Positions 1 through 6,645 of a DNA stretch of 64,000 nt are shown here, piece by piece (within the stretch, counting starts at the first letter, position 1; each line of letters opens with the position of its first letter). The notes under the pieces are model-generated. The model was not told where the DNA came from. It was given only the letters and a program-made list of their open reading frames with translations, and searched no databases. The translations under genes were made by a program, and so were the position numbers. Source of the DNA: an uncultured bacterium (GTDB lineage: Bacteria > Verrucomicrobiota > Lentisphaeria > Victivallales > UBA1829); assembly GCA_949292215.1 (NCBI GenBank), contig CASEYW010000093.1, positions 124,001 through 188,000 of the forward strand, given 5' to 3'.

Positions 1-1095
1 CCGGTTCAGGAGTTCGGCGAATGCGCTGATCGTCTTGCCGGTATAGTGGGTTCCCACCCCCGGAATAATCACAACCAGCGTCTTTTTTTCGGATTTTTCC
101 CAGAAACGGTAGCGCAGTTTCGGCAGGTCTTCGGAAAAACGAATGCTGCGTGTGGAGGCCTCCGAAATAAAATCGGTATTCCAGAGCGAGGTTTTAATCC
201 ACCAGCTCCGGTGATTCTCCTGCATGGAGAACCAGGCGACACGCAGAGTATCGTTTCGTTCGTTTTCCGATTTGTAATACGGGGTAATCTTCCGGATGTC
301 GCCGTTTTCCGGAAGAGCCGCGGGCGTTCTTTCCTCCAGAGTACGGACGAAAGGCTGCTGGTCGCGAAAATCGTTCAGCTGCGTATAGCGCAGAGCCAGC
401 ATCGACATTTTGAACGTTTCATAGACATCCAGACTGCTTTCGGTCAGAGAGTTGTAGGAGTCGTAACTGCGGATTACACGGTTCAGTCCGCTGATCGACT
501 GGGCATAGGGAATGATGAATTTGATATCCAGCAGCGAATCGAACAGAGCACCGACCTGATCGCGGGGATTCGTCGCCGTGGAAACCGGCAGAACAAAGAG
601 GCACCCGGGACCGATTCCCCATGAAGCGAACGCATGTCCCATATTCTCATGACGGCGAGGAAGATCAAACCAGGCATCCGCGGGATCGAAAAGACCGGCA
701 ATGCCGATTGTTGAATTCGTCAGGAAACGCAGGAATTCCGTTCCGCCATACTTCCACTTTGCCTGAAGAAAGCAGCTCACCATGCGACCGGGAAATGCAA
801 GATTATCCGATGCCATGTCGATACGCCGGATGACCTGTTCCGGCAGAATGGAACCATACACCCAGGAAATCGGACAAACAAGATACTGCATCAGGACATC
901 GTTCACTGCAAACATGGAACGGTTGAACGGCTCAATCGGATCATCCCCGCCGAGTTCCTCCGTAACTTCCGCCATCGTCCATTCCTGTCCTGCGGGATGA
1001 GTTTCCGGTGCGGAAAAATCCGGTTTGGTTGCGCAGGCGGAGAACAGCATCATCAGGCCGGCGGCGAATAGAATTGCGAACCACTTTTGTTTCAT
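1..1095 (-). CDS. MlaA/VacJ-type lipoprotein fused to an alpha/beta-hydrolase-like region (3' end beyond window)
   Basis: Reading down from the ATG at 1095 gives a signal peptide with a lipobox (LFSAC) followed by an MlaA-like region: DPIEPFNRSMFAVND, then NSTIGIAGLFDPAD and the HENMGHAFASWGIGPG signature. MlaA is the outer-membrane lipoprotein of the Mla system that removes phospholipid from the outer leaflet. The same frame continues without a stop past the usual MlaA length and enters a stretch ending in TLVVIIPGVGTHYTGK (about residues 336-355), which resembles the first strand and oxyanion region of an alpha/beta hydrolase. The frame is still open at position 1, so the catalytic part is not visible. 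It is the last visible gene of an operon, 14 bp after coaB. The MlaA call is firm; the hydrolase call rests on a short segment. Confidence 0.8.
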   Translation of the reverse strand, partial: MKQKWFAILFAAGLMMLFSACATKPDFSAPETHPAGQEWTMAEVTEELGGDDPIEPFNRSMFAVNDVLMQYLVCPISWVYGSILPEQVIRRIDMASDNLAFPGRMVSCFLQAKWKYGGTEFLRFLTNSTIGIAGLFDPADAWFDLPRRHENMGHAFASWGIGPGCLFVLPVSTATNPRDQVGALFDSLLDIKFIIPYAQSISGLNRVIRSYDSYNSLTESSLDVYETFKMSMLALRYTQLNDFRDQQPFVRTLEERTPAALPENGDIRKITPYYKSENERNDTLRVAWFSMQENHRSWWIKTSLWNTDFISEASTRSIRFSEDLPKLRYRFWEKSEKKTLVVIIPGVGTHYTGKTISAFAELLNR

Positions 1096-1109
1096 ATCTC
1101 CTCCCACAT

Positions 1110-1742
1110 TCACAAAGGAAGGATTCTTTCCAGAATCCGTTCCGCGATTCGATCCTTGGAATCCAGAGGCAGAACGAACTTCTCCCCCTGCCGCGAAAAC
1201 AGGACCACGGCATTGGTCTCCGATTCAAATCCCTCGCCGGGAATGCCGACCCGGTTTGCCGCGATCCAGTCCAGATTTTTCCGTTTCAATTTGTCAAGAG
1301 CATACGTTTCAACCGAATCGGTTTCCGCCGCGAATCCGACAAGGATCTGATTCTCCCGTTTCATCCGTCCCAGGGAAAGAAGGACATCCTCCGTCGGTTC
1401 AAGCTCAAGGATCATCCGATCCGTCTTTTTTTTGAGTTTCCGGTCCGCAGTCATCACAGGGCGGTAGTCTGCGACTGCGGCACACATGATGATGCAGTCC
1501 GAGTTCACTGCCTCGCGCTTCATAGCATCCGCCATCTCCGCGGCAGTTTCAACTCGGATAAATCCGGTCACTCCCTCCGGCGGCATCAGAGAGACGGGGC
1601 CTGAAACAAGCACCGTCTCCAGTCCGCGCTTCACGGCGGCGGCCGCAAGCGCATATCCCATACGGCCCGTCGAACGGTTCGAAATGAAACGAACCGGATC
1701 AATCGCTTCCCGAGTCGGTCCGGCGCTGACAACAATCCTCAT
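1110..1742 (-). CDS. coaB: Stand-alone phosphopantothenate-cysteine ligase (CoaB domain)
   Basis: This 210-residue protein corresponds to the C-terminal half of CoaBC, which joins cysteine to 4'-phosphopantothenate in coenzyme A synthesis. Visible family features are the N-terminal SAGPTREAIDPVRFISN segment, STGRMGYALA, the AAVADYRP motif near residue 80 and the KLKKK segment that follows, and VGFAAET. No CoaC flavoprotein half is present, so decarboxylation must be encoded elsewhere. The ATG at 1742 is chosen because the protein family begins exactly at MRIVVSAGPTRE; the longer frame upstream encodes unrelated sequence. The start overlaps the nadK stop by an ATGA junction, which indicates translational coupling. 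Confidence 0.9.
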   Translation of the reverse strand: MRIVVSAGPTREAIDPVRFISNRSTGRMGYALAAAAVKRGLETVLVSGPVSLMPPEGVTGFIRVETAAEMADAMKREAVNSDCIIMCAAVADYRPVMTADRKLKKKTDRMILELEPTEDVLLSLGRMKRENQILVGFAAETDSVETYALDKLKRKNLDWIAANRVGIPGEGFESETNAVVLFSRQGEKFVLPLDSKDRIAERILERILPL

Positions 1743-2497
1743 TTCGGATCCTCCGGAGTGAAAATGGAACGCCGGTACCGGTGGCGAAGACGACGGCAAA
1801 CCGGACACATGAAGACATCCAGACCGAGAAACTCCGACGCATCCTCCGAAAGACGGATCACACACTCATCACCGACATTCATCGGTTCCGGCAAACGGAA
1901 GTTGTCCGCAACGATCTCCCCGGGCCCCCGGTTGATCTTCACCCGGATCACCGAACTCTCCGGCAGGATCAGATGATTCACCAGTTCCGTGCTGTTGCTG
2001 AAGGCAAGCCCGATCCCGACCCGGAACACACTGTGCGTAATACTTCGGAAATATGCAGTCGAACCGTGGACTGTCGCCACACCCACGCCGTCCCCGACGA
2101 TCTCATGAGAATAGAGTTCCCCGTCGATCCAGATCTTATAGCGGAGTGCCGAGGCGTTGTTCCTGTTATGAATGAAAATATCGTTCATCGCGTAAAGGAC
2201 GTTCTCTCCGAAGCGCCCCTCAAGACGGAAAAGACGGGAACGCTTGAGTTTTCCCGCAAAAAACTGTTCGAGCTGTCCATCGACCGCATGTTTGTGACAG
2301 AGCGGAGCTGTTTCGACATCGCGGATCGGATATTTCAGAATCCTCGGATATTCCCGCTCGGCCTCCAGCAGAGTTCCATCGCCGCCGTAGGCGAGAATCA
2401 TATCTGCGTCGGCGGGATCGTCGCAGAGAATGACCTTCCGGAGTTCCAGTTTTTTCCTGAGTTCGGCGGAATTCCGTCCGATCACAGCCAGTTTCAT
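1739..2497 (-). CDS. nadK: NAD(+)/NADH kinase
   Basis: This 252-residue protein phosphorylates NAD to NADP. It carries the GGDGTLLEA motif near residue 40 (catalytic Asp in GGDG), NDIFIHN (the usual NE/D motif) and a GDGVGVATVHGSTAY segment matching the conserved GDG...GSTAY loop. The sequence after GSTAY diverges from the usual SLSAGGP pattern, so it is a divergent member. The C-terminus has an unusual CPVC pair. The ATG at 2497 follows a weak GGAAAG site; the longer upstream frame has no family similarity and is rejected. It lies 38 bp after trmH and overlaps coaB by 4 bp. Confidence 0.87.
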   Translation of the reverse strand: MKLAVIGRNSAELRKKLELRKVILCDDPADADMILAYGGDGTLLEAEREYPRILKYPIRDVETAPLCHKHAVDGQLEQFFAGKLKRSRLFRLEGRFGENVLYAMNDIFIHNRNNASALRYKIWIDGELYSHEIVGDGVGVATVHGSTAYFRSITHSVFRVGIGLAFSNSTELVNHLILPESSVIRVKINRGPGEIVADNFRLPEPMNVGDECVIRLSEDASEFLGLDVFMCPVCRRLRHRYRRSIFTPEDPK

Positions 2498-4899: not shown

Positions 4900-5946
4900 A
4901 TGCCACAAGCAGAATCCAGTGTTTCGGAATATATCAGAATCCGTCGCTACGTTCTGACGCTGATCCAGAAAGCGGAAGGAAAAGAGGTGCCTCTGCCGTC
5001 GATTCTGGAGCTGTCGAAGCTGTTTCAGGTGAGCCGTCCCACGGTCAGCCGGGCGATGAAGGCTCTGACGGAAGAAGGATATGTCATCGGCAGACGCGGG
5101 ATCGGTTCCTTTGCCAATCCGGCGGAACGCCCGTATTATCTGGGCTCCCAGCCGACCGTCGGACTGCTGAACGGAGACGGCAGATGCGTCCATTTTGACA
5201 AGTACCTCAGCCGCATCTACTCCCATCTGATGATGGAAGCGACAGCCCTTCCGGCGCTTGTTCACCAGGTATCTCTGACATCCGGCAATCCGGACACCAT
5301 GTTCCAGGAGATCCGGAATGAACAGCTGGATGTCCTGATCTGGCTGGGAATCAATTCCCCGAAGGAGAATGAGGTGCGCGCGCGCCTGATCGACTCCGGC
5401 CTGCCAGTGATTTCCACGGAAAACACCTGCGGTCCGGACGGGTTCGCAACGGTCCGTCTGGGACTCCGGGAACTCGGTTATGAGTGCGGGAAGCAGCTGA
5501 TTGCGGAAGGCAGGAAAAATCTGGTCTTCCTCCCCGCCTCCAGAGGATGGGCTCGTCCGCTTCCCGGAATCTGCAAAGCATACGAGGAAGCCGGGATTCC
5601 TCTGAACCGGAATCTCTTTCTGGAAAATGTTCAGACCTGTCTGGAGGATTTCCGGAAACTTCTGGCGTTCGGCGTACCGGTCGATGCGGTATTCAATGCT
5701 CTCTACATTCAGAACGAAGTGTCGGACATTCTGCGTGAATTCCACATTGACCTCCGCGAACAGTGCCGTCTGATCCAGAGCAATCTCTGCATTTCCGAAT
5801 CGGAAGAGTTCCACGGCTTTTCTTTCGATTTTGCGTTTCAGAAACATGCGCAGCAGGTGGCTCTCCTGGTAAAAAAAGCCCTTGAAGGGGCTCCTCTCCC
5901 GGAACAGGGGCTCGTCACAAAACTGAATCTGAATATTATAAAATAG
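4900..5946 (+). CDS. GntR-type DNA-binding domain with LacI-type sugar-binding domain, regulator of cassette A
   Basis: The 348-residue protein begins with a winged helix of GntR type: LPSILELSKLFQVSRPTVSRAMKALTEEGYVIGRRGIGSF, about residues 30-75. A C-terminal region resembles the periplasmic-binding-protein-like effector domain of LacI/AraR regulators (TVGLLNGDG, then DVLIWLGINSP). It is therefore a one-component, probably sugar-responsive regulator. It is transcribed from the perfect promoter at 4831-4859 with a direct repeat at the start site, suggesting autoregulation. The pseudopilin (9 bp downstream) and GH2 gene follow in the same direction and are the likely targets. The effector sugar cannot be read from sequence. 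Confidence 0.85.
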   Translation: MPQAESSVSEYIRIRRYVLTLIQKAEGKEVPLPSILELSKLFQVSRPTVSRAMKALTEEGYVIGRRGIGSFANPAERPYYLGSQPTVGLLNGDGRCVHFDKYLSRIYSHLMMEATALPALVHQVSLTSGNPDTMFQEIRNEQLDVLIWLGINSPKENEVRARLIDSGLPVISTENTCGPDGFATVRLGLRELGYECGKQLIAEGRKNLVFLPASRGWARPLPGICKAYEEAGIPLNRNLFLENVQTCLEDFRKLLAFGVPVDAVFNALYIQNEVSDILREFHIDLREQCRLIQSNLCISESEEFHGFSFDFAFQKHAQQVALLVKKALEGAPLPEQGLVTKLNLNIIK

Positions 5947-5955
5947 GAGGCAACA

Positions 5956-6645
5956 ATGACACATCCGGACGTAAACAGAAAATGGAATTTCTCCTGCTTC
6001 ACATTAATAGAGCTTCTGGTAGTAATTGCGATCATCGCGATCCTTGCGGCGATCCTGCTCCCCGCACTGAACCGCGCCCGGGAAAAGGCGCAGGAGATCA
6101 CCTGTTCCAGCAATGTCAAGCAGATCGGAATCGCCCTGCACAATTACACGGGAGACAACAACGGCAATCTCGTCATAACCAATCCTTATCCGCTTTCGCA
6201 TCCGGCGTGGTACACACTGCTGTACAACGGCAAGTACTGGCAGAGAAATATCTACTGTCCGACGGCGCTGGCCGCCATGACCGCTCCGAAAAACCTCTAC
6301 GTCTACACCAGTTACGGAGCCAACTGCAATTTTCAGATGGGATACGGAAGAAGCGATCCGGCGTACTGGTGCAACATCATCCTGATGGAAAAGGTCAAAC
6401 AGCCGTCGAAGTGCATAGCCTTTGCCGACGGATACGGCAGGGTCTCCTCCAGCGGCTCATTTTCCTGGAACAACACTCTTCTGGATGGCGGAGGCAGCTC
6501 GGAAACCCTGGGACGGTACCATTCCGGAAGAACCCCCGTCTGCTTTCTGGACGGCCATGTGGAATCCCGACAAATTCCACTTGAATTCTCCGGAACGAAC
6601 TGGTATGGTATCCAGGCTTCCACCACCTTCTGGACCGGAAAATAA
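5956..6645 (+). CDS. Pseudopilin-like secreted protein with prepilin N-terminus and H-X9-DG motif (cassette A)
   Basis: This 229-residue protein has a type IV prepilin/type II secretion N-terminus ([24 protein letters not shown], about residues 16-39). The conserved Glu lies five residues into the processed protein. It then has the helix-cap segment [20 protein letters not shown]. The rest is a globular domain ending in [12 protein letters not shown], the H-X9-DG motif of the Planctomycetes/Lentisphaerae pseudopilin families. A prepilin peptidase would cleave and methylate it. An AGGAGG site precedes the ATG. It sits between the regulator and the GH2 gene. Its role (substrate capture, surface display or secretion pseudopilus) is not established. 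Confidence 0.87.

Follow-up and report, generated by a model that had tools for sequence, protein, structure and literature searches.

A single-gene fusion of an MlaA-type lipoprotein with an MlaY-like alpha/beta-hydrolase as a candidate one-chain route for phospholipid removal

A gene at the left edge of the window (the whole stretch of 64,000 nucleotides analysed here, G000:C93:124001-188000, from a contig of 201.7 kb in a genome of 4.93 Mb) raises the question of why an MlaA lipoprotein should run on in frame into a hydrolase, and whether a single polypeptide might both extract and degrade mislocalised phospholipid. We found that the frame, which a sequence-only reading had described as open to base 1 of the window, indeed begins with an ATG at position 1095 of the minus strand and contains no stop within the window. 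No early stop follows past the edge either: another 1,071 bases (stop included) lie to the left, down to G000:C93:122930, and the stop codon occupies C93:122930-122932. The whole gene (L002:6930-9095:-) encodes a protein of 721 residues in one open reading frame, counted from that ATG. The features in the window, in the direction of transcription, are as follows.

1110-1865, minus strand: DFP/CoaB-type protein gene, upstream neighbour (PF04127, E 2.6e-68)
1098-1105, minus strand: GGAGGAG resembling a Shine-Dalgarno sequence, ahead of the start codon at 1095, read from the sequence
1-1095, minus strand: MlaA-hydrolase fusion gene, window part (residues 1-365 of 721), open reading frame
1033-1095, minus strand: signal peptide and lipobox LFSAC, with the lipidated Cys expected at residue 21 (sequence and lipobox scan)
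397-945, minus strand: MlaA domain, residues 51-233 (PF04333, E 7.5e-43)
277-396, minus strand: residues 234-273, the C-terminal MlaA region plus the linker to the hydrolase (domain positions and alignment)
1-276, minus strand: residues 274-365, the first part of the MlaY-like alpha/beta-hydrolase, with PGVGTHY (sequence, Pfam and alignment)

The DFP/CoaB-type gene lies on the same strand as the fusion gene and ends 14 bases before its ATG, and the two genes probably form an operon. Downstream of the fusion gene, beyond the window, lies an Exonuc_VII_S (xseB) gene. Elsewhere in the window, on the plus strand at 4900-6645, a regulator-like ORF (348 aa) precedes one whose N-terminus is of the prepilin type; prepilin-like genes of that sort are abundant in Lentisphaeria.

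The Pfam scan of the protein placed a complete MlaA domain, as had been read from the window, at residues 51-233 with 146.9 bits against a family cut-off of 25. The solved MlaA structures 5nuo, 5nuq and 8i8r were also matched by sequence, and the profile A2 match had an E value of 1e-33. The lipobox LFSAC marks the window protein as a putative lipoprotein, as expected of MlaA, and the fusion is thus predicted to be an exported lipoprotein, probably of the outer membrane. By a simple rule, a lipobox was present in 42 of 50 fused loci vs none of the 10 split MlaA proteins. Structure predictions from four-sequence alignments gave a mean pLDDT of 38.1 for the full-length protein and 44.1 for the hydrolase only; in the hydrolase-only model, the strand-elbow-helix at the nucleophile and one other helix reached block means of 70-79, which proves little.

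Serine-hydrolase motifs were sought to the left of the window, and the GxSxG elbow, the Asp and the His were all found there, as Ser428 (the nucleophile), Asp648 and His675. We aligned 63 sequences, comprising 50 fused loci, 10 split ones and 3 from other phyla (L063, L079, L082 and frames below 300 residues were left out). Ser428 and both glycines of the elbow were conserved in 63/63 sequences, His675 in 62/62 and Asp648 in 61/62, where the totals of 62 reflect one sequence that ends early through a broken frame. The single exception at Asp648 was a Glu in Fusobacterium.

The closest counterpart of this arrangement is found in Pseudomonas aeruginosa, in which MlaZ, an MlaA-family protein and MlaA paralogue, hands misplaced phospholipid over to the lipase MlaY, according to passages of three papers (PMC11131202, PMC12569750, PMC10474453). 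MlaYZ corresponds to PA3238/PA3239, and the founding study is Guest et al. 2023 PNAS, as cited in passages of PMC11131202, PMC11977310, PMC12569750 and PMC10474453. Passages of PMC11977310 place MlaY among the alpha/beta-hydrolases and give its residues as Ser187, His415 and Asp388. A plasmid record of P. aeruginosa carries a hydrolase-mlaA pair, and its hydrolase (P0002) could be recognised as MlaY because Ser187, Asp388 and His415 sit at exactly the published positions. This protein matched the window protein by BLASTP with an E value of 5e-30 and 26% identity over 381 residues, and Ser428, Asp648 and His675 of the fusion aligned with Ser187, Asp388 and His415, respectively. Furthermore, hhalign between the hydrolase profile A1 (28 hydrolases of the window's order) and the MlaY-type alignment A4 (three proteins) returned a probability of 100 and an E value of 1.6e-54. 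This comparison rules out a generic lipase with no specific relative; judged by sequence, the hydrolase half is homologous to MlaY. The proposal that MlaA is joined to a lipase in one chain is upheld to this extent: the open reading frame is real, the predicted triad is complete and conserved, and the enzyme half has a specific homologue. Three P. aeruginosa plasmid records (L078, L079 and L082) show the mlaY-mlaZ region with chromosomal-looking flanking genes, and one of them, pPALO11 (L079), carries a hydrolase with no annotation and a broken frame.

We compared the domain architecture in 61 relatives. The fusion protein was matched in 58 of them, with no match in G004, G037 and G039; among the genomes with completeness of 90% or higher and contamination of 5% or lower it was matched in 30/30 and MlaC in 0/30. 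MlaA and the hydrolase shared one frame in 45/61 relatives, and in 10/61 they were two adjoining genes on the same strand in the same order, overlapping or nearly so. The fused state was scored by open-frame length and spanning matches; G007 was counted as fused despite a frame broken inside the hydrolase part, G019 and G043 were cut by contig ends and fell in neither count, and the loci looked at in detail are part of the relatives. The broken locus of this draft genome (L057, G007:C157:3761-5839) has frames of 588 and 191 residues, and the break may be real decay or a sequencing error. Another relative, a single-contig genome, carries two divergent fusion copies (L037 and L038, G036:C1). All 10 free hydrolases had their own hydrophobic, signal-peptide-like N-terminal stretch (judged by eye), suggesting that the enzyme lies outside the cytoplasm, in the periplasm.

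In the hydrolase tree (without L057, L063, L079 and L082), the 10 split rows fell together across one branch (SH-aLRT 82), with the 49 fused rows elsewhere. The fused state required two changes in the MlaA tree, which omits L041, L051 and L063, pieces at contig ends, as well as L079 and L082, both nearly identical to L078. Judging from these trees, the fusion could have arisen through one fusion and one fission or through two fusions, both of which fit. The MlaA proteins of the window's phylum did not join Pseudomonas MlaZ in the MlaA tree.

With the same E. coli control giving positive results for both families, neither MlaC (PF05494) nor PldA (PF02253) was detected in the window's genome; MlaC was present in 1/61 relatives and PldA in 0/61, and the Pfam scan of the fusion protein gave no match to the PF02253 domain. 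The one order-level genome with MlaC (G046; 78% complete, 6% contamination) has MlaA and no hydrolase. These absence calls were made in draft genomes and depend on their completeness.

The pairing was then followed across 240 genomes of the phylum. Strong hydrolase-profile matches occurred in 69 genomes, MlaC in 27 and MlaA in 94, and MlaA was found in 69/69 of the hydrolase genomes. Weak A1 matches in G063, G169 and G213 (E 2e-4 to 1e-3) were left out as generic hydrolases, and one locus split over two contigs (G193) was counted once. The mlaA gene was mostly single copy (98 genes in the 94 genomes): 71 adjoined or were fused with the hydrolase, 26 adjoined mlaC, none did both and one did neither. 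This last gene is a second mlaA, L089 (G243:C188:27825-28409), the sole case among the 98. One genome (G192) gave a weak MlaC match (5.5e-12) without MlaA. Both partners occurred together in a single genome, G207, which has two mlaA genes, one per partner, and in this respect resembles P. aeruginosa with MlaA and MlaZ. Its two loci (L083 and L084, G207:C1:1963232 and 2986607) hold a short mlaA beside mlaC and, about 1 Mb off, a separate mlaA-hydrolase fusion.

Fisher's test for hydrolase vs MlaC within the 94 genomes gave 6e-22, a value that ignores the kinship of the genomes and overstates the exclusivity because related genomes are not independent. In the MlaA tree, few changes separate the genes partnered with the hydrolase from those partnered with mlaC, so the exclusivity rests on few events, which weakens it as support for our reading; the tree is consistent with a partner choice made rarely and then faithfully kept. 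The alternation between shuttle and enzyme, 71 to 26 of 98 genes with none having both, suggests that MlaC and MlaY can stand in for each other in emptying the same pore.

Compared with MlaYZ, the fusion has the same components, an MlaA-family protein and an alpha/beta-hydrolase lipase, with homologous halves and the same aligned triad. However, MlaYZ consists of two genes with the hydrolase first, an order seen in Pseudomonas, Skermanella and Fusobacterium, whereas in the window's phylum mlaA comes first (by a locus comparison from which loci repeating the same place had been left out) and here the two form one chain. The separate genes of MlaYZ, fused and reversed here, are probably not a defining trait of that system. 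P. aeruginosa also has a canonical MlaA pathway besides MlaYZ, according to part of PMC12569750, as opposed to the fusion genomes, which have no detectable MlaC. The canonical Mla system of E. coli (MlaA-MlaC-MlaFEDB) shares with these genomes an MlaA domain above the Pfam cut-off and, in most relatives, MlaD and MlaE, but 60/61 relatives have no detected MlaC and a hydrolase follows MlaA instead. PldA (OMPLA) resembles the fusion in its proposed job of destroying outer-leaflet phospholipid, although it belongs to another protein family. A survey of 1,083 genomes with the same Pfam models concluded that MlaABC is mostly proteobacterial, and the word "fusion" is absent from its text (PMC10665443). 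We found no description of an MlaA-hydrolase fusion, nor of a phylum-wide alternation of enzyme and shuttle, in the open-licence literature searched; the founding MlaYZ paper might mention a fusion.

Because the hydrolase half is homologous to MlaY, we consider it likely that the gene is a natural single-chain MlaZ-MlaY, by which misplaced phospholipid would be extracted through an MlaA-type pore and cleaved by the tethered hydrolase, being destroyed instead of carried back by MlaC. By analogy with MlaYZ and MlaA, a phospholipid misplaced in the outer leaflet would enter the MlaA ring of the outer-membrane lipoprotein and exit on the periplasmic side to the covalently attached MlaY-type serine hydrolase, which would cleave it in place via Ser428-Asp648-His675. 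Since the linker comes immediately after the C-terminal portion of MlaA, it probably keeps the enzyme on the side where MlaC would be loaded. The hydrolase would fill the position of E. coli MlaC, and the lipid would be destroyed at the outer membrane, not carried back. The extract-and-degrade role proposed from the window alone gains support from the MlaY homology, with the phospholipase activity, the substrate, the hand-over route, the direction of lipid flow and the role in lipid asymmetry all being putative.

An alternative, which we regard as unlikely, is that the hydrolase only makes lysophospholipid, which MlaD and MlaE then carry back, so that the fusion is an adaptor to retrograde transport and not its replacement. 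MlaE and MlaD were each detected in 59/61 relatives, so in most genomes the fusion coexists with the inner-membrane complex, and retrograde transport without MlaC is possible, which also counts against our own reading. The MlaD frames are mostly longer than 300 residues, and in Veillonella parvula an elongated MlaD forms a periplasm-spanning bridge; passages of PMC10665443 describe this minimal MlaEFD bridge as working without MlaC. That organism, however, has no MlaA at all, whereas the present genomes retain MlaA, joined to an enzyme, and the same source describes the MlaD of the PVC group as having no beta-barrel. Also speaking against the adaptor are the two relatives without detected MlaE, G012 and G019, in which MlaD was not detected either: in G012 (97% complete) the fusion is whole although none of MlaC, MlaD and MlaE could be detected, and the fusion can therefore persist without the inner-membrane complex. 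The loci L053 (G012:C25) and L051 (G019:C152) belong to one genus, both without MlaC, MlaD and MlaE, which may represent the system at its most reduced. In three other relatives (G051:C16, G056:C21 and G059:C15), frames some 530 residues long match the MCE domain several times; the MlaD proteins of the other relatives are single-domain.

There is a small chance that the enzyme is a transacylase, or an esterase acting on some other lipid or protein of the envelope, with MlaA merely its anchor. The Pfam matches of the hydrolase are weak and limited to broad hydrolase families, with Hydrolase_4 at residues 336-473 (E 1e-5, 25.4 bits) just below the cut-off of 27, and the best profile matches in solved structures are mixed esterases led by a venom phospholipase A1 (E 1.6e-5). 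The generic Pfam matches, and the fact that MlaY-like enzymes could act on another ester, are points against our preferred reading as well. The specific homology to MlaY and the pairing of the hydrolase with MlaA in Fusobacterium, Skermanella and Pseudomonas speak against the transacylase or esterase.

We give similarly little credence to scavenging, in which the fusion would take in outside phospholipid from food, host or lysed neighbours and cleave it for nutrition rather than repair. The architecture would suit uptake equally, and one relative is labelled yak rectum, placing at least part of the group in animal guts. However, the gene lies between housekeeping genes (coaB-type and xseB) and not in an uptake locus, the fusion is single copy in nearly all genomes, and it alternates with mlaC, an asymmetry gene. 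Chance read-through or an assembly fusion of two unrelated neighbours has next to no probability, with no point found in its support, a conserved triad, and a recurrence in independent assemblies that rules it out.

The fusion is real, conserved and functionally coherent, and it is a new architecture of the system described in 2023. It is debated whether MlaA sends phospholipid inward to be recycled, and also how the partner of MlaA docks. With a natural fusion, the partner is fixed at the C-terminus of MlaA, and one gene suffices as a construct; mutating its single Ser should uncouple extraction from destruction. For the wider biology our judgement is evenly poised: a large bacterial branch, made up of the Victivallales, further relatives of the Lentisphaeria class and a scatter of members in other parts of the phylum, may keep its outer membrane asymmetric without MlaC-based retrograde transport, one polypeptide extracting and destroying outer-leaflet phospholipid and so doing the jobs of MlaC and PldA, and the MlaA partner in this phylum may be either a shuttle or an enzyme.
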